This document shows, piece by piece, positions 3,652-64,000 of a stretch of 64,000 nucleotides of DNA (position 1 is its first letter; every line of letters starts with the position of its first letter). A model generated the notes under the pieces. The model saw nothing but the letters and a program-made list of their open reading frames with translations. It was not told the origin of the DNA and did not search any database. This DNA comes from Candidatus Sulfotelmatobacter sp. Its GTDB lineage: Bacteria > Acidobacteriota > Terriglobia > Terriglobales > Acidobacteriaceae. The position numbers and the translations under genes were made by a program. Location of the stretch: the NCBI GenBank assembly GCA_025462865.1, contig JAOAPI010000171.1, positions 1 through 64,000 of the forward strand, written 5' to 3'.

Positions 3652-5586
3652 CTACGCACTCTTCCGGTCGTCAACATCAACGTACTCAGCGTCCACCACA
3701 CCTTCGTCCTTAGCGCGGCCATCGGTTCCAGATTGAGGCCTCCCCGAACCGGAAGCTCCAGCTCCAGGCGTTGCGCCTTGCGGCTGCGCCGCTTTATACA
3801 TCTGCTCAGCCAGTTTGTGTGAAGTCTGGGTAAGGCGATCACGTGCCTTGTCCATGGCCTCCTTATTGCCTGACGCCAAAGCTTGTTTGGCGTCGGCCAG
3901 CGCATTCTCGACATCTCCGCGTTCAGATCCTGAGATCTTGTCCCCCTGTTCGCGCAGCATCTTTTCGACGCTGTAGACCAAAGAGTCAAGTTGATTTCTG
4001 GCTTCAATCTCCTCACGTCTCGTCTTGTCTTCGGCCGAATGCGATTCAGCTTCTTTCGCCATGCGCTCGACGTCTTCCTTGCTCAGGCCCGACGATGAAG
4101 TAATGGTGATTTTCTGATCCTTGCCTGTGGCGAGGTCTTTCGCGTTCACATTGAGGATGCCATTCGCATCAATGTCAAAGGTCACCTCGATCTGCGGCAC
4201 ACCACGCGGAGCTGGCGGAATTCCAGTCAGGAGGAACTTACCCAGCGTCCGGTTCTGCGACGCCATCGGACGCTCTCCTTGCAGTACATGGACATCTACC
4301 GCAGTCTGGTTATCGGCTGCCGTCGAAAATGTCTCCGTCTTTCGGGTAGGGATTGTCGTGTTGCGCGGGATCATAGCCGTTGCAACTCCGCCTTGCGTTT
4401 CGATCGAAAGCGTCAGCGGCGTTACATCCAGCAACAGCAGATCTTTCACATCTCCCTGAAGTACTCCACCCTGAATTGCGGCGCCCACTGCAACCACTTC
4501 ATCCGGGTTCACTCCCTTATGCGGTTCTTTGCCAAACAGTTCCTTAACCAGGGTCTGGATACGAGGCATGCGCGTCTGCCCGCCCACCAGCACTGTCTCG
4601 TCGATCTTGCTGGCTTCGACTCCAGCATCTTTCATGCACTGCTTGCAGGGCGGCACAGAACGCTGAATGAGATCCTCGACCATGGATTCAAGTTTGGCCC
4701 GTGTCAGTTTTTTGACCAGGTGCTTGGGGCCGCTGGCGTCAGCCGTGATGAAAGGCAAGTTGATCTCGGTCTCCATGGTGGTGGATAACTCGATCTTTGC
4801 CCGTTCGGCTCCGTCGCGTAGGCGCTGCAATGCCATTTCGTTGCCTTTGCCACGCAGATCGAGGCCTTCGTCTTTCTTGAACTCATCGATAAGCCAATCG
4901 ACAAGGCGTTGGTCGATGTTGTCGCCGCCCAGGTGAGTATCACCATTCGTTGCTTCAACTTCGACCAGGCCTTCGCCGACTCGGAGGATAGAAATGTCGA
5001 ACGTACCGCCGCCGAAATCATAGACGGCAATGGTCTCGTCCTTCTTCTTATCTAGGCCGTAAGCGAGCGCCGCCGCCGTGGGTTCATTGATGATCCGCTT
5101 TACATCGAGGCCGGCAATTTTTCCAGCGTCTTTCGTAGCCTGCCGCTGCGCGTCATTAAAGTAAGCGGGCACAGTAATAACCGCTTCAGTGACTTTTTCG
5201 CCCAGATAATCCTCAGCCGCTTTCTTCAGCTTTTGCAGGATCATCGCTGAAATCTGAGGCGGAGTGTATTTCTTGCCTTGAGCGACAATCACGACGTTGT
5301 CGCCGTCCCGCTCCACTTTGTAGGGGACCATTTTCAGCTCTTCGGTCACCTCGTCGTAACGCCGTCCCATGAAACGCTTGATCGAGTAGATAGTATTTGC
5401 GGGATTGGTGATTGCCTGACGTTTCGCAACCTGACCGACAAGTATTTCGCCGGTCTTGGTGAATGCGACCACCGACGGAGTTGTCCGGCCACCTTCTTCA
5501 TTGGGGATGACGTTAGGCTCTCCACCTTCAATCACAGCCACCACCGAGTTCGTCGTGCCGAGATCAATGCCAATAATCTTGGCCAT
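3652..5586 (-). CDS. dnaK: Molecular chaperone DnaK (Hsp70)
   Basis: 644 residues, the usual length. The start [11 protein letters not shown], the ATPase motifs ([14 protein letters not shown] near 190, [10 protein letters not shown] near 335), the linker [12 protein letters not shown] near 390 and the substrate domain are all intact. The C-terminus ends in an acidic DAEYVDVDD tail, typical of full-length DnaK. An AGGAGG ribosome site precedes the ATG at 5586. It folds and refolds proteins together with DnaJ and GrpE. Neither partner gene, nor hrcA, is in the window. No CIRCE element is visible upstream. Confidence 0.98.
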
Positions 5587-31950: not shown

Positions 31951-32039
31951 AGCTCTTAGCTTTTAGCTCCTAGCCTTTAGCTCGAACTGGCCAATATAGG
32001 GGTCCCAAGCTAAAAGCTAAAAGCTAAGAGCTAACAGCT
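31951..32039. repeat. AGCTAAAA-type repeats forming a large inverted repeat
   Basis: The right arm (32008-32039) is a tandem of AGCTAAAA and AGCTAAGAG units. The left arm (31951-31982) is its reverse complement with a few changes. About 25 bases can pair across a 25-base loop. It fills the whole gap between cinA and thpR. Confidence 0.7.
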
Positions 32040-44525: not shown

Positions 44526-45497
44526 ATGGAAGCTACGTACCGACCTCGTTCCTGGAAAACGCTTCTGGCGTTCGCCATTATTTATTTCGTCTGGGGCTCC
44601 ACGTTCCTGGCGATCCGCGTTGGTGTGCGCGAGGTCCCGCCCTTTCTGCTCGCAGGAATGCGATTCTTCGCCGCCGGTATTGTGCTCTACATCTGGATGC
44701 GCGCCAGTGGCACACCCTCGCCGACGCGCCGCGAATGGGCATCGGCGACATTACTGGCGCTGCTGATCTTTGTGGTGGATTACGGATTGCTCTTCTGGGC
44801 AGAGCAGCGCGTGCCCTCGGGAATTGCTGCGGTCATGATGGCGACGATTCCGGCATTTATGGCTCTCGCAGAAATTCTTATCTTGCGCACCCAAAAGCTA
44901 ACTCTTCGTCTGGCACTGGCCCTTCTCGTCGGGCTTGCCGGAGTAGGGGTTCTGGTCAGCCGCTCGGTAAGTTTTGGTGACGCTCCCATAGAAAAGTTCG
45001 GCGCGATTGCCCTGCTAGTGGGCGCTATCGCATGGGCGTTGGCTTCGGTATTGAGTCGCAAACTCCCTTTGCCAAAATCTCAGGTCATGAGTTCAGGAGC
45101 ACAAATGCTCGCTGGAGGAATTCTGCTCGCCCTGGCAGCAGCCTTGTTGGGTGAATTCAGAAACTTCCATGTGCAGGCAGTCTCTTTGGGAGCTTGGTTG
45201 GCTCTGGCTTACCTGATCGTCGCCGGTTCAATCATCGGATTCACCGCCTATGTCTGGCTTCTCCATCGCGAATCGCCCACCAAAGTTGGAACCTACGCGT
45301 ATGTAAATCCGGTAGTAGCAGTTCTTGTGGGATATTTTCTAGGCGGCGAAACGCTTGGCGCCCGCACAATCTTGGGGACGGCTCTGGTGCTGGTGAGCGT
45401 GATTGTGATCACGACGACGCCGAAGAAAGCAGTGGAATCGGAGATGTTAGCCAACGCGGCGGAGTTAACGGAAACTCGGAGGACTTCAGCCGACTGA
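44526..45497 (+). CDS. EamA/DMT family transporter
   Basis: 323 residues from the ATG at 44526, the first start compatible with the first membrane helix; an upstream ATG at 44457 adds an arginine-rich stretch unlike the family. Ten membrane helices form two EamA repeats: FAIIYFVWGSTFLAIRVGV opens the first, and the second ends with YAYVNPVVAVLVGYFLGGE. It exports small metabolites or amino acids; the substrate cannot be read from sequence. No clear ribosome site. Confidence 0.88.
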   Translation: MEATYRPRSWKTLLAFAIIYFVWGSTFLAIRVGVREVPPFLLAGMRFFAAGIVLYIWMRASGTPSPTRREWASATLLALLIFVVDYGLLFWAEQRVPSGIAAVMMATIPAFMALAEILILRTQKLTLRLALALLVGLAGVGVLVSRSVSFGDAPIEKFGAIALLVGAIAWALASVLSRKLPLPKSQVMSSGAQMLAGGILLALAAALLGEFRNFHVQAVSLGAWLALAYLIVAGSIIGFTAYVWLLHRESPTKVGTYAYVNPVVAVLVGYFLGGETLGARTILGTALVLVSVIVITTTPKKAVESEMLANAAELTETRRTSAD

Positions 45498-45561: not shown

Positions 45562-46986
45562 TTACGGCCGCGTCATTCTTTCCGGCTTGACCAACTGATC
45601 GAATTCCTCGCCCGAAAGATAGCCGAGCTTCAGCGCCGCCTCGCGCAAAGTGCTGTGCTCTACGTGCGCTGTGTGCGCGATCTCCGCCGCCTTGTCGTAT
45701 CCCACTTTCGGAGCCAGAGCGGTTACAAGCATCAGTGAGTTCTTCACATACCCATCCACCTTGGCGCGATCGACCTCGATGCCTTTGATCATGTATTCGA
45801 CATAGCCGTGACAGGCATCGGCGATCAGCGTGACCGAGTGCAGGAAGTTGTAAATAATCACCGGCTTGTAAACGTTGAGTTCGAAGTTTCCCTGTGATCC
45901 GGCGAATCCCACCGCAGCAGTCGCCCCATGAACCTGCACGCACACCATGGTCATGGCCTCAGCCTGCGTGGGATTCACTTTGCCCGGCATGATTGAAGAT
46001 CCCGGTTCGTTCTCAGGAATCGAAAGTTCGCCGAGGCCACAACGTGGTCCGGAAGCCAGCCACCGGATGTCGTTCGAAATCTTCATCAGCGACGCGGCCA
46101 GGGTTTCCATCGCCCCCTGTGCGAACACGATCTCATCATGCGCCGAAAGCGCGGCGAATTTGTTGCCATGCGATCGGAAGGGAAGTCCCGTGAGTTCCGC
46201 AATTTTCTTCGCCGCGCGTTCCGCGAATTCAGGGTGCGCGTTCAGGCCAGTCCCCACCGCAGTTCCGCCGATGGCCAAATCGTACAGCCCCTCCAGCGCC
46301 TGCTCCAGTCGCTTGATGTCGCGCTGGAGCAAACTTGCCCAGCCGCCGAATTCCTGTCCAAAGGTCAGTGGCACGGCATCCTGCAAGTGTGTGCGGCCGA
46401 TCTTGACTACGTCATGAAATTCTTTTGCTTTCGCCGCGATCGCATCATGCACGCTCTTGATCGCTGGAATCAGCGCATTTTTCACCCGCTCGGCAGCCGC
46501 GATGTGCATCGCCGCCGGAAACGTATCGTTCGACGATTGCGACATGTTCACATCATCATTGGGATGAATAGGCTTCTTCGATCCCATCTCGCCCCCGGCA
46601 ATTTCGATCGCGCGGTTCGAGATCACCTCATTCACGTTCATGTTCGTCTGGGTTCCGCTGCCCGTTTGCCAGATGCGGAGCGGAAACTGGTCATTCAACT
46701 TCCCGCCGATCACCTCGTCGGCGGCTTGCACGATCAGCTTTGCCTTGTCTGCGGGCAGCTTGCCCAGGTCCTGATTGACCAGGGCGCAGGCCTTCTTCAA
46801 GATGCCAAAGGCTCGAATCAATTCCGGAGGCATGGTATCGCGCCCAATATTGAAATGCAACAGCGACCTCTGAGTCTGCGCGCCCCAGTAGACATTCGCC
46901 GGGACTTCGATCTTTCCCATGCTGTCGGACTCGGTTCGCGTGCGAATAACCGGTTCGGCGATCTTGGGATCGGTAATAGCGGACAT
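45562..46986 (-). CDS. fumC: Fumarate hydratase, class II
   Basis: 474 residues from the ATG at 46986, which has AGGAG upstream; the longer frame to 47103 would overlap the divergent toxin gene. The signature [13 protein letters not shown] near 325 with the catalytic Ser loop, [14 protein letters not shown] near 105 and [17 protein letters not shown] near 190 are intact. It converts fumarate to malate in the TCA cycle and needs no iron-sulfur cluster, unlike class I enzymes. Confidence 0.97.
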
Positions 46987-49930: not shown

Positions 49931-51256
49931 ATGGAACCGCAACCGGAGCGCAGTCTCCCCTCAATTTCGATCTCTTCTTACTTGCGCCTGCTGCGCGGCA
50001 ATCGCAATTTCCGCCGCCTGTGGCTGGCGCAGATTGTCAGTGAGATTGGCGACTGGTTCTATACGCTCTCGATCTACACTTTGCTCCTGCAGTTGACCGG
50101 ACACGCCAGCTCGGTCGCCTTGGCGCTTGTTCTCCAGGTCTTGCCCCAAACGTTCGTAGGTCCGGTGGCAGGAGTTGTGAACGATCGTATCCGGCGCAAA
50201 TACGTCATGATCGCCGCGGACCTGGTCCGCTTTGGCATTGTTCTGGCCATGCTGCTTGTGCGATCACGCTCGACGGTCTGGCTTGTCTATCCCTTGTTGC
50301 TGGCCGAGACCATCATGGCCGCATTCTTCGAACCGGCACGCAGTTCTGTGATCCCCAACATCGCCGCGCAGGAAGAAGTGCTGATCGCGAACACGCTGTC
50401 GTCCGCAACGTGGTCGATGAATCTCTTGATAGGCGCGTCGGTCGGTGGAGTCGTTGCCGCTTTCTTCGGAAGAGACGCGGTTTTCGTTCTCAACGCCTTA
50501 TCCTTTTTAGCTTCAGCGATTCTCATTGGAGGCATGCACTTCGCCGAGCCGCACGCCCAATCGGCAGCTCCGTTGCAGGCGCGCGACCTGGTCGACTTTT
50601 CCCCGGTGCTCGAAGGAATTCGCTACATCCGCAATCACCGCACGCTTCTGCCTACGGTCTTTGCGAAAGCGGGCGAGCTGATGATCGGACCGAGCTGGGT
50701 AATCTTCACCGTGCTCGGCGCCCATGAGTTCGCCGTGCATTGGCGCAATGTCGACCCCGGCCGCGGCGCGATGCTCGGCATGAGCATCCTGCTTGGTGGA
50801 CGCGGCCTGGGAGCGCTGTTCGGCCCACTGCTATCCGCTCGCTGGGCCGGCCGCAGTGACCGCCGGTTGCAGCTGGGCATTCTCTTTGGCTACCTCACTA
50901 TTGCGGTTGGATATGGAGCACTCGGCTTCAGCCGCACAGTCTGGATGGCTAGTGCGTGCGCCATGCTCGCGCATATGGGAGGATCGACCGTCTGGGTCTT
51001 CTCAACAACTCTGCTGCAGCTTCACACCGAAGACCGTTTCCGGGGCCGCGTATTCTCCGCCGACCTGGGTTTCTCCATGCTCACAATCGCTGCTGGCGCC
51101 TTCCTCTGTGGACGCCTGCTCGATGCCGGCGTCGCCGCCCGCTCCGTCGCAACGTGGACGGGCCTGGTGATGCTGATTCCGGCCGTACTCTGGGCTCTGG
51201 CAATACGAAGTACCCAACGACACGGGAAGGGCACGACTTCAGTCGTGCCGCTATGA
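49931..51256 (+). CDS. MFS transporter (MFS_3 type exporter)
   Basis: 441 residues with about twelve membrane helices. The loop motif VVNDRIRRKYVMIAADLVRFG after helix 2 is the MFS motif A. LLRGNRNFRRLWLAQIVSEIGDWFYTLSIY at the N-terminus is typical of the EntS-like MFS_3 group that exports siderophores or drugs. The last nine or so codons come from an intergenic hairpin repeat (51230-51249), so the C-terminus may have been extended by repeat DNA. Confidence 0.9.
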   Translation: MEPQPERSLPSISISSYLRLLRGNRNFRRLWLAQIVSEIGDWFYTLSIYTLLLQLTGHASSVALALVLQVLPQTFVGPVAGVVNDRIRRKYVMIAADLVRFGIVLAMLLVRSRSTVWLVYPLLLAETIMAAFFEPARSSVIPNIAAQEEVLIANTLSSATWSMNLLIGASVGGVVAAFFGRDAVFVLNALSFLASAILIGGMHFAEPHAQSAAPLQARDLVDFSPVLEGIRYIRNHRTLLPTVFAKAGELMIGPSWVIFTVLGAHEFAVHWRNVDPGRGAMLGMSILLGGRGLGALFGPLLSARWAGRSDRRLQLGILFGYLTIAVGYGALGFSRTVWMASACAMLAHMGGSTVWVFSTTLLQLHTEDRFRGRVFSADLGFSMLTIAAGAFLCGRLLDAGVAARSVATWTGLVMLIPAVLWALAIRSTQRHGKGTTSVVPL

Positions 51257-51284
51257 GCCTGAAAGTTGCAGGCTTTAGCCCCTG
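51230..51284. repeat. TTCA-loop hairpin repeat, copy A, overlapping an MFS gene end
   Basis: GGCACGAC-TTCA-GTCGTGCC (51230-51249) is a perfect 8-bp hairpin that lies inside the last codons of the MFS gene. It is followed by GCCTG/CAGGC and the shared text GGCTTTAGCCCCTG (51271-51284), which recurs in recN at 63044-63057. Confidence 0.75.
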
Positions 51285-54285: not shown

Positions 54286-54311
54286 GCAACTCCCACTTGC
54301 CGCAGCTGAGT

Positions 54312-54317
54312 TATAAT
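54312..54317 (+). promoter_or_regulatory. -10 box placed for a leaderless mRNA
   Basis: A perfect TATAAT ends six bases before the ATG at 54324, so transcription would start at the A of the start codon. There is no ribosome site, and no clear -35 box. Confidence 0.6.
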
Positions 54318-54323
54318 CCCGCC

Positions 54324-54704
54324 ATGCCTCCTGCACCTGGCGCCACCAAAGCCGTCGGCATGGTTCCCGACGAGATGAAGGCCGAACCGAAGTCCAAAGG
54401 ACTCAGCACGCCGCGCAAGAAGAAACCCAAAGAGCTGGCGGTGATTACCGAGTGCTGCACCGGATGCGCCGGCTCGCCGGCGTGCGTGGAATATTGTCCG
54501 GTGGAAGACTGCATGTTCTGGGTGCCGGACGAAGACAGCACTCCGTTCGGGCGCATCGCAATCGATCCTATTCTCTGCATCGGCTGCAAGAAATGCCTCA
54601 GCAAAGGCCCCGACGGCTGCTTCCTCGATGGCTGTCCGTGGGACGCGATAGCGATGGTGGACATCGCTGAAGTGGAAAAAGAAGTCGGCCCGATGGCGAT
54701 CTGA
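54324..54704 (+). CDS. Ferredoxin-like protein with two iron-sulfur clusters
   Basis: 126 residues. After a Lys/Pro-rich N-terminal arm of about 45 residues, two cluster motifs follow. The first is CCTGCAGSPACVEYCPVEDC and the second is CIGCKKCLSKGPDGCFLDGCPWDAI. Both have extra residues between the third and fourth Cys relative to the plain C-x2-C-x2-C-x3-C pattern, so the cluster types are uncertain. It is a likely electron carrier. No partner oxidoreductase is adjacent. It appears to be translated from a leaderless mRNA. Confidence 0.85.
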   Translation: MPPAPGATKAVGMVPDEMKAEPKSKGLSTPRKKKPKELAVITECCTGCAGSPACVEYCPVEDCMFWVPDEDSTPFGRIAIDPILCIGCKKCLSKGPDGCFLDGCPWDAIAMVDIAEVEKEVGPMAI

Positions 54705-54716
54705 AAAAAGGTTCTG

Positions 54717-54778
54717 GTGGAAGAGCGGCGCTTCAGCGCCGCGTAAAGCCCACAATCAGTGTGGGCTTCAGTCCCTGA
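54717..54778. repeat. TTCA-loop hairpin repeat, copy B
   Basis: GCGGCGC-TTCA-GCGCCGC is followed by AAGCCCACA-N5-TGTGGGCTT. The 28-base stretch 54717-54744 matches 62995-63022 inside recN at 26 positions. Confidence 0.8.
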
Positions 54779-55004
54779 GTGCCTGCTTACTTCTCTGACT
54801 CGCCTTTTTCGGCGGCCGTTCCCCAGAATGTTCCGGACTTTCCCCCGGCTCCGGGAAATCGCTATCGGCGCCTTTAATCCGTGGATCCTGGTCGCGGTGC
54901 CCCAGTTGTTCGGAGAGGCCAAGGTTCCCGTCGTGCTGATGCTCTTCAGCTTCAGTCGCACCCTTGGCGCGGTCGGGATCGTTATCGGAAATCTTCGTCA
55001 TCAT
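54768..55004 (-). CDS. Small acidic hydrophilic protein
   Basis: 78 residues, rich in Asp, Glu, Pro and His, with no membrane segment (SDNDPDRAKGATEAEEHQHDG, then GADSDFPEPGESPEHSGE). It looks disordered. The gene starts 24 bases after the cpoB stop on the same strand with GAGG upstream, so it could be the last gene of the tol-pal transcript. Its last few codons run into the hairpin repeat at 54717-54778. Real gene status is likely but not certain. Confidence 0.55.
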   Translation of the reverse strand: MMTKISDNDPDRAKGATEAEEHQHDGNLGLSEQLGHRDQDPRIKGADSDFPEPGESPEHSGERPPKKASQRSKQALRD

Positions 55005-60560: not shown

Positions 60561-61214
60561 ATGGCGCAGTGTGGAATGCTACGAGACTATCGTTTCACCA
60601 ATGCAGCAGAAGATATACGCGGCTCCAAGGTGTACGGATTGAACGACGAGAAACTGGGCAAGATCGACGACGTCATTTTCGACCACGCCAGCGGATCGAT
60701 CCGCTATGTGGTTGTCGATACCGGTGGCTGGCTGTCATCCAGGAAATTCATTGTTCCAGCCGAGCGCCTTCGCTGCTCTGCCGAGCACACAGACGATTTT
60801 TCCGTCGATCTTAACAAAGAACAAATTGAACGCCTGCCACCCTACAACGAAACAGATCTGGAATCCGATCAGCAGTGGTCTGATTATGAAGGCAAATACC
60901 GCTCTAAATGGGAAACTGGCCCAGTGATGCACCGTGCCGAGACCGACCGCAACATTACTCCGACCACGCAGCAGATGCAGGGAAATTCGTCTTCTGCTCG
61001 TGCTGCAGGTTCGACCGCCGGTAGCCAAGACACAGGAGCATTTACTCAGGGTGGATTTGCTGCCAGCACCGATTCGGTTGAAATCAGCCAGAGCGCAAAT
61101 GGAATCGGCCCACGTTGGGATACGTTCCAGAACCGCCTGCGCGAGCGCCGCAAAGAAGTCATCAACACCGGCTCGGCGCAATCAGGTGCTGACACGTACC
61201 GCAAAGCGGGGTAG
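60561..61214 (+). CDS. PRC-barrel domain protein
   Basis: 217 residues. The first 85 residues form a PRC barrel (GSKVYGLNDEKLGKIDDVIFDHASGSIRYVVVDTGGWL, then KFIVPAERL). The rest is hydrophilic and rich in Ser, Thr and Gln, probably disordered, with a short helical end (TFQNRLRERRKEVIN). No signal peptide or membrane segment. GGAGGATGA lies just before the ATG. PRC-barrel proteins of this kind are often stress-linked; a partner is not known here. Confidence 0.87.
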   Translation: MAQCGMLRDYRFTNAAEDIRGSKVYGLNDEKLGKIDDVIFDHASGSIRYVVVDTGGWLSSRKFIVPAERLRCSAEHTDDFSVDLNKEQIERLPPYNETDLESDQQWSDYEGKYRSKWETGPVMHRAETDRNITPTTQQMQGNSSSARAAGSTAGSQDTGAFTQGGFAASTDSVEISQSANGIGPRWDTFQNRLRERRKEVINTGSAQSGADTYRKAG

Positions 61215-61320
61215 AAGATTGGAGGCTGGCCCTGTAAGCGGTTTGGAAGGGTAATTCCGGCGCAACTCCGCCGAGGATTTTATCTGCGAAGCGGCGTCGG
61301 AAATGCAGGCCAAGCCTCGC

Positions 61321-61340
61321 CCTGAGCCTGTCGAAGGGGC
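61321..61340. repeat. TTCGACAGGCTCAGG-type element
   Basis: CCTGAGCCTGTCGAAGGGGC. On the minus strand it begins CCCCTTCGACAGGCTCAGG, a short oligomer that I recall as highly repeated in many unrelated bacterial genomes. Only one copy was noticed in this window. Confidence 0.65.
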
Positions 61341-61416
61341 GCAAGCCGTGGGATAGAGAGTGGGGCCGCGGCAGCCCCGGTGGGCGAAAGAGTTCTTCTC
61401 GCAACTTGGTTATGTC

Positions 61417-61448
61417 TCGCAAAGCCACGGCTTCAGCCGTGGCTTTTT
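61417..61448 (+). terminator. TTCA-loop hairpin repeat, copy C, terminator-like
   Basis: AAGCCACGGC-TTCA-GCCGTGGCTT is a perfect 10-bp hairpin followed by TTTT. It belongs to the same family as copies A, B and D, but its U-tract means it could also terminate the PRC-barrel transcript. Confidence 0.75.
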
Positions 61449-61553
61449 TCCCACGCGACATAGAAAACCACTCTGCAACGAAACAAATTGCGCCTCTCCC
61501 CTTTCATGCTATGCTGCGCAAAACCTCCAAACATCTCGTTCTTGGGACGGCCT

Positions 61554-63374
61554 GTGCTGGTTGAGCTGCGATTAGAAAATTACGCGGTGATCGATAACGC
61601 CGCGGTCGAGTTCGCCTCCGGGTTGAACCTTCTCACCGGTGAAACCGGCGCTGGAAAATCCATTCTCATCGACGCTCTGGCTCTGCTCCTGGGCGACAAA
61701 GCCTCGAGTGAAGTGATTCGCAACGGCGCAGACCGGGCCGTAGTGTCAGCTGTTTTCGAATGTGAGGGAGATGCCCAGGAGGCGATTGAGAAAGTACTCG
61801 AGAAAAACGGCCTCGACGAATCCGAAGACGGCTCTCTAATCGTCCGCCGCGAAATTGCGGCTGGAGGCAAGGGCCGCGCATTCGTAAACAACCAACCCGC
61901 GACCGTGGCGGTTCTTCGGCAACTCGCCCCGCACCTGGCGACGATCCACGCGCAAAATGAATCGATCTTATCTTTCGACGCCCCATCTCGCCTCGCGCTG
62001 CTCGACGGATTTGCCGAAAGCCAAATCGAGCCCGTCACCTCCGCCTACGAAACTTGGAAGGGAATCAGCACCCGCATTGAAGACCTGGAGCGGGGCGAGC
62101 AGGATCGTCTCCGCCTCGTCGATCTCTGGATGTTTCAGAGAAAAGAAATTGAAGATGCCAAAGTCCAGTCGGGCGAAGACGCGCAGTTAGAAACGGAAAA
62201 GCGAGTCCTCGCCAACGCCGAGAAAATTTACAACGCCGCCATGCACGCCTTCGATCTTCTCTACGAAGGCGATGCCTCCACCTCTTCATCGCTGCGCTCC
62301 GCGCAAAAACAAATCGAAGAACTGGCTCGCTACGAGCCGAAGTTTCAGGAGGCTCTCGCCGCCCTCGAAACGGCGCGCATCAGCGTGGAGGATGTAGGAG
62401 CCACCGTACGCGACTACGCCGGCGGCATTCATGCCTCTCCCGAACACCTGGCGGAAGTCGAAGACCGTCTTGCAGCGCTTGACCGCCTGAAGCGCAAGTA
62501 TGGTCCCACCCTCGAGGACGTGATCGCCTTCGGCGCAGACGTAGCCCTCAAGCTTTCCGAGATCGAAAACAAAGACGAAATCCTGCGCGCCCTCCGATCC
62601 GACTTGGCCAAAGCCTCTGAAGAATACTTGCGTGCATCTCGGTCGCTTTCAAAAAAGCGCCAGGACGCAGCCCGCAAGCTCGAAAAGTTAGTGGAATCGC
62701 AAATCAATGATCTCGCTATGAAGTCCACATTCCGCATCGAGATCACCACATCCGACGCGGAAGGGAACTGGTCGGCAACCGGAATCGATCAGGTGCTCTA
62801 CATGATTTCCACAAATCCCGGCGAGCCCATGCGCCAGCTCGAACACATCGCTTCCGGCGGCGAGTTATCTCGCGTAATGCTGGCCCTGAAAGTGAGCGTG
62901 GAAGCAGGAAGGCAGAGTATGACGAGCCAGAGTACTGGAAGGCAAAGTGCCGCAGGGCAAATCGCTGCAGGGCAAATCGCTGCAGCGGAACAACGTGGAA
63001 GAGCGGCCCTTCAGGGCCGCGTCAGCGGCTCAAACTCGTCCAGGGCTTTAGCCCCTGTGAAGCAGCGCACGATGGTCTTCGACGAAATCGACACCGGCAT
63101 CGGCGGCCGCGCCGCCGAATCCGTCGGCAAAAAGCTGAAGTCTCTCGCCCGATCCAACCAGGTCCTCTGCGTGACCCACCTCCCGCAAATCGCCACTTTT
63201 GCTGATCATCATTACGTGATCGAAAAAAAGGAGCGTAACGGACGCACCCGAACCGGCATTCGCCCCGTCGTCGCGGAAGAGCGCACTGAGGAAGTAGCCC
63301 GCATGCTTAGCGGCGCTAAACTGACGGATACCTCCCGCAAGCACGCCGAGCAAATGATCAAAGCAAACGCGTAA
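61554..63374 (+). CDS. recN: DNA repair ATPase RecN
   Basis: 606 residues from the GTG at 61554 (LVELRLENYAVID opening); the ATG at 61488 adds unrelated residues. The N-terminal head has Walker A GETGAGKS; a long coiled coil spans about 150-370. The C-terminal head has the signature HIASGGELSRVMLALK near 428 and Walker B MVFDEIDTGIGGRAAE at 507. About 50 extra residues lie between the signature helix and Walker B (about 453-505), where RecN normally has only a few; they are encoded by repeat DNA. The frame stays open, and both ATPase motifs are intact. RecN holds broken DNA ends together in double-strand-break repair. Confidence 0.95.
   Translation: MLVELRLENYAVIDNAAVEFASGLNLLTGETGAGKSILIDALALLLGDKASSEVIRNGADRAVVSAVFECEGDAQEAIEKVLEKNGLDESEDGSLIVRREIAAGGKGRAFVNNQPATVAVLRQLAPHLATIHAQNESILSFDAPSRLALLDGFAESQIEPVTSAYETWKGISTRIEDLERGEQDRLRLVDLWMFQRKEIEDAKVQSGEDAQLETEKRVLANAEKIYNAAMHAFDLLYEGDASTSSSLRSAQKQIEELARYEPKFQEALAALETARISVEDVGATVRDYAGGIHASPEHLAEVEDRLAALDRLKRKYGPTLEDVIAFGADVALKLSEIENKDEILRALRSDLAKASEEYLRASRSLSKKRQDAARKLEKLVESQINDLAMKSTFRIEITTSDAEGNWSATGIDQVLYMISTNPGEPMRQLEHIASGGELSRVMLALKVSVEAGRQSMTSQSTGRQSAAGQIAAGQIAAAEQRGRAALQGRVSGSNSSRALAPVKQRTMVFDEIDTGIGGRAAESVGKKLKSLARSNQVLCVTHLPQIATFADHHYVIEKKERNGRTRTGIRPVVAEERTEEVARMLSGAKLTDTSRKHAEQMIKANA
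62905..63062 (+). repeat. Repeat DNA inside recN: 15-bp tandem plus TTCA hairpin copy D
   Basis: GCAGGGCAAATCGCT occurs twice in tandem (62952-62966 and 62967-62981). Next, 62995-63022 repeats copy B (54717-54744) at 26 of 28 positions, including the GCGGCCC-TTCA-GGGCCGC hairpin. GGCTTTAGCCCCTG at 63044-63057 matches 51271-51284 exactly. All lie within the recN frame. Confidence 0.85.
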
Positions 63375-63488
63375 CGCATTGCCGTGCCGCGCCAACTTCC
63401 ATCCCGCCTCGCCTATTTTGCTCCCGGTCCAATCATCCCGCCAATTCTTCCAACTCCAAAAAATCAATTTAGCCGCTCGTACGCCGTC

Positions 63489-63531
63489 TTGACAACGCCG
63501 AGGTCGGTTAGCTAAGCTATCTTAGCTAACC
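63489..63531 (+). promoter_or_regulatory. Promoter and palindromic operator of the Phd/PIN pair
   Basis: A consensus -35 TTGACA (63489-63494) is followed by the perfect 11-bp inverted repeat GGTTAGCTAAG-CTAT-CTTAGCTAACC (63506-63531), which covers the -10 position. It ends 11 bases before the antitoxin start, as expected for an autorepressed toxin-antitoxin operon. Confidence 0.75.
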
Positions 63532-63542
63532 AGTGAAGCCAC

Positions 63543-63782
63543 GTGGAAACAATTACCATTCACAAAGCTAAGACCCAGCTCTCCCGGCTGATCGAAAAGG
63601 CCTGCCGGGGCGAGGAGATCATCATTGCCCGAGGAAAGCAGCCGGTAGTGAAGCTGGTAGCTCTGCCGCTAGCCCAAAAGAAGAAGCGGACGCCTGGAGC
63701 ATGGAAGGGAAAGATCTCGTATACTGCCGACGCTTTCGATCCCCTGACGGATCAAGAATTGAAAGACTTGGGTTTTGAATAA
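63543..63782 (+). CDS. Phd/YefM-type antitoxin
   Basis: 79 residues with a GTG start at 63543. The N-terminal DNA-binding fold is METITIHKAKTQLSRLIEKACRGEEIIIARGKQPVVKLVAL, the classic prevent-host-death pattern. The C-terminal tail (TADAFDPLTDQELKDLGFE) would wrap the toxin. It represses its own operon and neutralises the PIN toxin that follows. Confidence 0.9.
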   Translation: METITIHKAKTQLSRLIEKACRGEEIIIARGKQPVVKLVALPLAQKKKRTPGAWKGKISYTADAFDPLTDQELKDLGFE

Positions 63783-63834
63783 AGCTGCCCTGCTGCAAGC
63801 TCACGATTAACGGTTCCAAGCTGGTTCGAACTGC

Positions 63835-64000
63835 GTGCAGATTCTTCTCGACACACACGTTTTGGTTTGGTGGATGGAAGATGCGAGCCGACTATCGAGA
63901 CATGCGGTCGCTATCCTCGAGAATCCCGACAACGGCATTCTGGTCTCGGCTGTAGTGGGCTGGGAGATTTCAATAAAAGTCGGTATCGGCAAGATGAAGC
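63835..64000 (+). CDS. PIN-domain toxin (VapC type), partial
   Basis: The gene is cut by the window end after 55 residues. From the GTG at 63835 it reads ILLDTHVLVWWMED with the first catalytic Asp, then SRLSRHAVAILENPDNGILVSAVVGWEISIKVGIGK with the conserved Glu. This is a PIN ribonuclease of the Phd-coupled group. It starts 52 bases after the antitoxin stop. The remaining acidic residues lie outside the window. Confidence 0.88.
   Translation, partial: MQILLDTHVLVWWMEDASRLSRHAVAILENPDNGILVSAVVGWEISIKVGIGKMK

Follow-up and report, generated by a model that had tools for sequence, protein, structure and literature searches.

In-frame palindromic repeats in bacterial genes, repair genes among them, are already known (PMC3733652). 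In its main text, Di Nocera et al. (2013; PMC3733652) describe GTAG/CGTC REPs that lie in frame inside genes, many of them for DNA repair (uvrA, recBCD, dnaE2), note a GTGG variant of the tag for O. terrae, report different REPs at about the same recB site in two Xanthomonas species, and propose linkers or loops as tolerant sites. The name recN does not occur in that main text (the host genes are listed in Additional file 3). The corresponding elements of Rickettsia (RPEs) are 105-146 bp long according to PMC2229807, which also reviews intragenic MITEs and describes an RPE-bearing guanylate kinase that is still active with an altered substrate affinity. For RPE-4/6/7 a common origin was favoured in PMC3767692, hotspots not being ruled out there, and in Wolbachia in-frame WPE-like inserts were described in addA, addB and priA (PMC4224334). 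REPtrons, that is, RAYT (TnpAREP) genes flanked by REPs, are described in PMC6006769 and also in PMC3733652. In Coxiella, the overlap of a QMITE2 with recN is confined to 7 bp at the 3' end of the gene (PMC5896051).

We compared these systems with recN in a window (the whole stretch of DNA that was analysed, 64,000 nucleotides) from Candidatus Sulfotelmatobacter sp., where a 65-base repeat, here called family A, lies in frame within a variable loop of the protein. Family A resembles the intragenic GTAG/CGTC REPs, which are also short, tagged and dispersed hairpins, some of them in frame in genes; however, the same-site case in the main text of PMC3733652 is one species pair, whereas here a whole family of bacteria and several repeat families set on a tree are concerned. 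Rickettsia and Wolbachia RPE/WPE share with the present locus in-frame palindromes in conserved genes, orthologous sites with different RPE classes, and hosts in repair or recombination (PMC3767692, PMC2229807, PMC4224334). Unlike an RPE, as defined by a length of 105-146 bp and by occurrence in Rickettsia, family A has 65 bp and an acidobacterial host, and while one origin was favoured by the authors for RPE-4/6/7, the different families found here make repeated occupation the better reading. The likeness to REPtrons is one of arrangement, with REPs on both sides of a gene for a HuH Y1 transposase in the window's genome, and the likeness to Coxiella QMITE (PMC5896051) lies in a palindromic element that touches recN and other repair genes, with a 7-bp overlap at the 3' end there and an internal insert here. 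In the open-access literature, supplementary files aside, we found neither a recN-internal repeat nor palindromes of Sulfotelmatobacter, and the literature searched held no precedent for the site in recN, for this number of repeat families or for their turnover on the tree.

RecN was called an essential-type repair ATPase in the preliminary description; in model bacteria recN is dispensable. In the window recN occupies 61554-63374 on the forward strand, with 606 codons, no internal stop and the GTG start given in the preliminary description; a TTG farther upstream, at 61488, shares the reading frame. A profile search assigned the product to RecN (TIGR00634, 512.5 bits against a cut-off of 407.85), and its best solved matches are D. 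radiodurans RecN 4ad8 and 4aby; 4abx is a further solved relative. When 45 RecN were aligned, G29-G32, G34, K35 and S36 of Walker A (61638-61661, forward; GETGAGKS, residues 29-36) did not vary and A33 hardly did, and in Walker B (63075-63092, forward; VFDEID, residues 508-513) F509, D510, E511 and D513 were constant and V508 and I512 almost so. The ABC signature SGGELSR (residues 434-440, 62853-62873, forward) stands at the start of a modelled helix. Overall, the alignment shows no variation in the core residues of Walker A, the ABC signature, Walker B and the TH motif, and hardly any at their other positions. The claim that the frame and the ATPase motifs had been kept is supported, and the full-length protein would presumably be expressed. 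Downstream of recN (63543-64000), a small ORF and the next ORF look by eye like an antitoxin / PIN-type toxin pair.

The stretch from the signature motif to Walker B (62874-63077, forward, 68 codons) was recognised as a variable loop by comparison with relatives and by low pLDDT. Loops with a repeat have 32-68 residues in the acidobacterial family. The linker was already longer than usual before any repeat, since the family's loops without a recognised repeat have 25-34 residues, against 17 in Deinococcus RecN (counted from the alignment) and 19 in one Clostridia RecN. Read from the sequence, the 68-residue loop consists of the clade linker, a 15-bp tandem array that contributes about 15 residues (62941-62985, forward; 3.0 copies in frame, 90% matches by tandem-repeat detection) and, downstream of the array, a dispersed repeat that contributes about 22 residues (62995-63059). 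The preliminary description had derived about 50 residues from repeat DNA and had taken the length of the frame (606 versus about 555 residues in typical RecN) as fitting an insertion. The repeat (65 bp) and the tandem are present, but the rest is clade linker, and the loops without a recognised repeat show that the family did not start from the 'typical' length. The 50 residues are thus made up of linker, tandem array and repeat together.

Modelling the insert on RecN was one of the checks proposed earlier. In an AlphaFold2 model built on the alignment of 45 RecN (mean pLDDT 76.7, pTM 0.54; best structural match D. radiodurans RecN), the signature helix spans residues 435-462 and the Walker B strand 506-510, and residues 460-502, in the loop, are the only stretch of at least 3 residues with pLDDT below 50. 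The site is a low-confidence, probably disordered loop. Because the signature motif begins the helix in the known ABC fold, the far end of this helix should point away from the ATP sandwich, and we infer a position at the surface.

Some other roles of the insert were tried and rejected. A function as RNA structure was discarded because the minimum free energy of the predicted fold of 62990-63070 was not beyond that of shuffles (z -0.36). In 61200-63600, the counts of promoter and terminator predictions were like those of shuffles. An intein or an added folded domain was rejected since the insert has no Pfam match, and for an intein it is also far too short.

The family A element in recN (62995-63059, forward) was delimited by genome matches and by alignment of copies. 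It consists of GTGGAAGA, hairpin 1, a spacer and hairpin 2, and its reading is GRAALQGRVSGSNSSRALAPV. Hairpin 1 (63003-63020, GCGGCCC-TTCA-GGGCCGC) has a 7-bp stem and a TTCA loop, and hairpin 2 (GGGC-TTTA-GCCC) is at about 63042-63056. The window contains a second copy with both hairpins at 54717-54781 (forward), 12 bases past the stop of ORF 54297-54704, and an isolated match to hairpin 2 only at 51271-51284 (forward), near another hairpin. The matches quoted in the preliminary description were accurate: 62995-63022 agrees with 54717-54744 in 26/28 bases (93%), GGCTTTAGCCCCTG at 63044 agrees with 51271-51284 in 14/14, and the 15-bp tandem is as reported. With a 775-base query around the recN insert, at least 20 other matches were found in the same 6.08 Mb genome (E from 2.8e-8 to 6.2e-4; a lower bound, with 40 of the 47 candidates scored). 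Nineteen of these 20 lie between 392 and 462 of the query and one at 387-422, that is, on the repeat. Since all of them are on the repeat part of the query, the likeness between recN and the repeat is beyond chance. Short inverted sequences of other kinds also occur in the window: by eye, 51230-51250 and 61420-61450 hold intergenic short hairpins with a TTCA-type loop and different stems, and 31951-32032 holds an inverted repeat of two 24-nt arms, 92% complementary and 34 bases apart, with TTAGCTTTTAGCTC-like units. Because hairpins of the TTCA type with other stems lie between genes of the window, the hairpin of family A may belong to a broader class in which the stem varies.

In its tag, its dispersal and the flanking of a transposase gene, family A corresponds to the REPs of the GTAG type. 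Twelve copies were aligned, the recN copy included, and GTGG was at the 5' end of 12/12, both hairpins being present; the tag is thus a variant and not GTAG itself, and it places the family with GTAG-type REPs. The at least 20 other matches agree with a short, many-copy, dispersed hairpin. In a 399 kb sample that was partly chosen for hits, 8 of the 10 family A pattern hits were outside long ORFs, the remaining two being in recN and in an antisense ORF which, judged by eye, is probably spurious. A Y1 gene, the candidate cognate by its arrangement, is flanked by family A. It is one of eight Y1_Tnp matches in the window's genome, seven of them over the cut-off of the profile search. This IS200-like gene (G000:C62:45358-45663; PF01797, E 3.4e-9, 37.3 bits against a cut-off of 23) encodes a protein that contains PDHIH. 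Family A stands in direct orientation upstream (45150-45216) and reversed downstream (45787-45817), with two further reversed copies farther upstream. Because the gene is flanked in this way, we infer that its product may move family A. The gene lies in a dense repeat cluster with four family A matches (G000:C62:44600-45830, equal to L124:8600-9830), where a hairpin with a TGGGGCACCC end was also seen by eye.

For the loops of relatives, a family search found RecN in 146 of 150 genomes, and the 30 best loci were fetched and read, so that the set leans to close kin. A second source gave 59 loci, for a total of 89 (L009-L097). Removing four loci without a loop left 85 loops, removing eight duplicates left 77, and removing six short cores left 71 rows. 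Loop classes were set by hand from loop DNA. One of five repeat families was found in 30 of the 71 loops (A in 5, B in 12, D in 11, E and F in one each), none was recognised in 31, and 10 were unclassed. Two A-like loops, those of L057 and L076, have degenerated. Stems, tags and sizes vary from family to family, except that D and F both start with GTGTGG; E holds GTAG on the other strand (both by eye). A further family, C (TTCGAC...CTCAGGGCAGGC), is by eye mostly nested in or beside other repeats. A genus search gave a match in 40 of 45 genomes, and the loops of the 25 new loci read (L134-L158) all repeated known ones. One genome of the genus has a second, distant RecN-like gene of 46% identity (G189:C323:270-1961), possibly contamination.

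Seven of the 30 classed repeat-bearing loops were used as whole-genome queries, the counts being lower bounds where 40 candidates were scored. For six of the seven, matches elsewhere in their own genomes were clear: at least 20 for the window (A), 22 for L085 (A), 33 for L084 (B), 14 for L065 (D), 28 for L024 (E) and 2 for L016 (F, in a genome that is 71% complete). The seventh, L012 (D), had one weak other match (E 4e-4), which counts against the turnover reading, since this loop is one of the gains of D that stand apart on the tree. The A query also matched the genomes of L086 (43 times), L040 (22), L057 (1) and L076 (6), the B query those of L052 (26), L043 (42) and L073 (40), and the D query those of L046 (12), L060 (3) and L081 (28). 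In contrast, the repeat-free loops of L013 and L072, used as control queries, found only themselves. Two in-frame D copies were seen in other ORFs of the window's genome. One is a hairpin at 14259-14284 in L119:14081-14710 (G000:C22), an ORF that looks by eye like ThiE (thiamine-phosphate synthase), with an orientation opposite to that in recN. The other is an element at 3772-3797 in a 232-residue ORF (L124:3237-3932, G000:C62), in the same VAR frame as the recN loops. Since both are in ORFs, recN may not be the sole host gene of D in this genome.

The best explanation of these data, to which we give a probability of about 0.72, is a serial turnover of in-frame REP-type repeats in a permissive RecN loop. 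The segment that joins the signature helix to Walker B would be a disordered, hydrophilic surface loop that tolerates very different in-frame peptides, with RecN function presumably little affected. REP-type palindromes that are scattered in these genomes would enter the loop DNA, in at least one case with a candidate cognate IS200-like (Y1/RAYT) transposase that may drive the entry, and a copy would survive only if it left the frame intact and brought in no stop. Later, tandem duplication, the nesting of other repeats within it, decay or in-frame deletion could reshape such a copy, or it could be replaced, and the outcome would be different repeats in series at one protein site. The present occupant in the window would be family A, probably from an ancestor that the window's lineage has in common with L040, L085 and L086, with the 15-bp tandem expansion added.

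A permissive site must be told from a preferred one. The recN loop DNA, or an element resident in it, could be a true hotspot, for example if new REPs land in an old hairpin. High occupancy (30 of 61 classed loops) would agree with this, as would the nested repeats seen by eye: a family C-like piece lies between the D arms in L039, L041 and L081 and within B in L044, L048 and L049, and in L010 B and a D/C composite are adjacent. Also, when 408,759 bp of DNA surrounding 59 recN loci were scanned with the A, B and D patterns, 13 of 14 hits were at the recN loop, but these patterns were built from recN loops and the count is therefore biased; pattern C, with 3 mismatches allowed, had chance-like hits in ordinary genes. 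In order to have a measure that is free of patterns, hairpins were counted in 77 loci, separately for a clade of 34 and the other 43 rows, with arm length and mismatch settings varied. With 8-bp perfect arms and loops of 3-10, the clade of 34 had 2.19 hairpins per kb in the recN loop (7 hits), compared to 0.88 between genes, 0.25 in ORFs other than recN and 0.23 in recN outside the loop. When the arms were set to 10 bp with one mismatch allowed, the values were 2.51, 1.04, 0.50 and 0.25, respectively. Over nine settings, the density in the loop was about 2 to 5 times the intergenic one. This excess over intergenic DNA is weak: in four settings the clade of 34 gave P values of 0.024, 0.17, 0.020 and 0.086, and the other 43 rows gave 0.11, 0.058, 0.039 and 0.32, without correction for the number of settings or for relatedness. 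For these reasons the pattern counts were not taken to show a strong hotspot, and a hotspot seems to us unlikely. The recN loop looks like intergenic DNA within a gene. Because its hairpin density is far above that of coding DNA and weakly above that of intergenic DNA, a permissive loop, presumably kept in frame by selection, accounts for the data, and a targeted hotspot is not supported beyond the weak excess.

A stronger form of targeting, in which several REP families are steered to the loop (e.g., by ssDNA exposure or resident hairpins) and diversify an arm of the RecN head that is flexible and basic, is quite unlikely in our view. If it were true, a reservoir of mobile elements would steadily rewrite one segment of a DNA-repair machine.

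We hold it to be just as improbable that the loop is under selection for its sequence, the repeat-derived peptide being used by RecN for contact with DNA, ssDNA or a partner, and the repeats supplying useful basic, Ala-rich sequence. Compared with the RecN core, the loops have more A, G, S, R, K, P and Q and less F, Y, L, I and V, and a K/R-rich linker is kept in many repeat-free loops; the composition, however, also fits a tolerated disordered linker. All 11 D loops are read in the VAR frame (VAR... or the variants PRTPS and RARTPS). This constancy counts against pure neutrality because the two simple D elements tested are open in all six frames. Shared descent explains part of it, and the peptide may be filtered for solubility. 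Against a selected peptide, neither sequence nor length is conserved between kin, the loops having 25 to 68 residues in the family.

We then consider whether all loops could descend from a single ancient insertion, its copies now dissimilar. The recN copies of the window, L040, L085 and L086 have the same C/G stem variant, which is rarer in the window's own genome, where G/C was found in 10 of the 11 copies fetched that match exactly and the one exception is recN; an inexact copy at C62:45150, beside the transposase gene, also has C/G. The bases immediately 3' of the element are common to the window, L040 and L086. Because the recN of three other species has the C/G stem and 10 of 11 own-genome copies have G/C, the family A copy in recN is probably old and not a recent move. 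On these sequences the simplest reading is one old A insertion, replaced or lost later in sisters, with the tandem expansion in the window's lineage. The earlier proposal that a palindromic element had moved into coding DNA and been tolerated gains from the in-frame dispersed element, the kept motifs and the low-confidence loop, but the move itself was probably long ago. The reading frame, which is constant within A, B and D as far as read, would also agree with a single insertion, and B is found in 10 rows of a 15-row clade, the others there being degenerate or different.

The tree was built from the 71 RecN cores with the loop left out, as a 'quick' tree with 21 of 68 inner branches open. 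With 61 classed rows (the 10 unclassed ones left out), at least 15 changes of state were counted; scored as presence/absence, the tree requires 4 changes for A, 4 for B and 10 for D, gain and loss not being separable. The nearest kin, L041 and L039, join the window at support 99, with 90% core identity to L041, and have a D/C composite and not A. The repeat-free L013 is inside the same 10-row group as the window (support 90), and L065, with D, is inside a group of otherwise repeat-free loops. The empty site and target duplication that had been proposed as checks could not be defined in the aligned relatives' loops, where the linker is replaced by a repeat and the relatives show replacement rather than simple gain. 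Unrelated sequence of equal length in close kin, named earlier as evidence against an insertion, was found in part: the loops of L039 and L041 have 48 and 49 residues against 68, and that of L065, with a repeat, has 32 against 31 in L072, without one, but most of these are repeat-like. Since five families are found at one site, six of the seven query loops clearly match repeats of their own genomes (the seventh weakly) and the loops are set on the tree, repeated occupation of one site by different families is a better explanation than one diverged insertion. The families are also unlike in stems, tags and sizes, apart from the start common to D and F, and a single insertion is in our view very unlikely.

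We see hardly any chance of an ordinary clade linker whose repeat likeness is due to chance or codon bias, or of an artefact of assembly: the sequences are metagenome assemblies or drafts and recN is frameshifted or cut in eight loci, but the own-genome E-values and the two negative controls speak against chance, internal stops are in one genome only (G118) among the rows listed, and misjoins would be unlikely for elements shorter than a usual sequencing read. In the metagenome loci L080, L087, L090 and L095 the recN frame is broken before the loop, by assembly errors or in real pseudogenes.

The recN loop of this group of soil bacteria is a real and modestly surprising case of a known phenomenon, in which the data point weakly to a directed landing site. 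For Rickettsia, repeated and single diverged insertion at orthologous sites were left unsettled in PMC3767692; the recN loops favour the repeated one. RecN joins the repair proteins with REP-coded segments, and its loops are a natural map of a permissive RecN site that is testable with chimeras. They present a coding site that can take in one mobile-looking sequence after another while the protein stays in frame.
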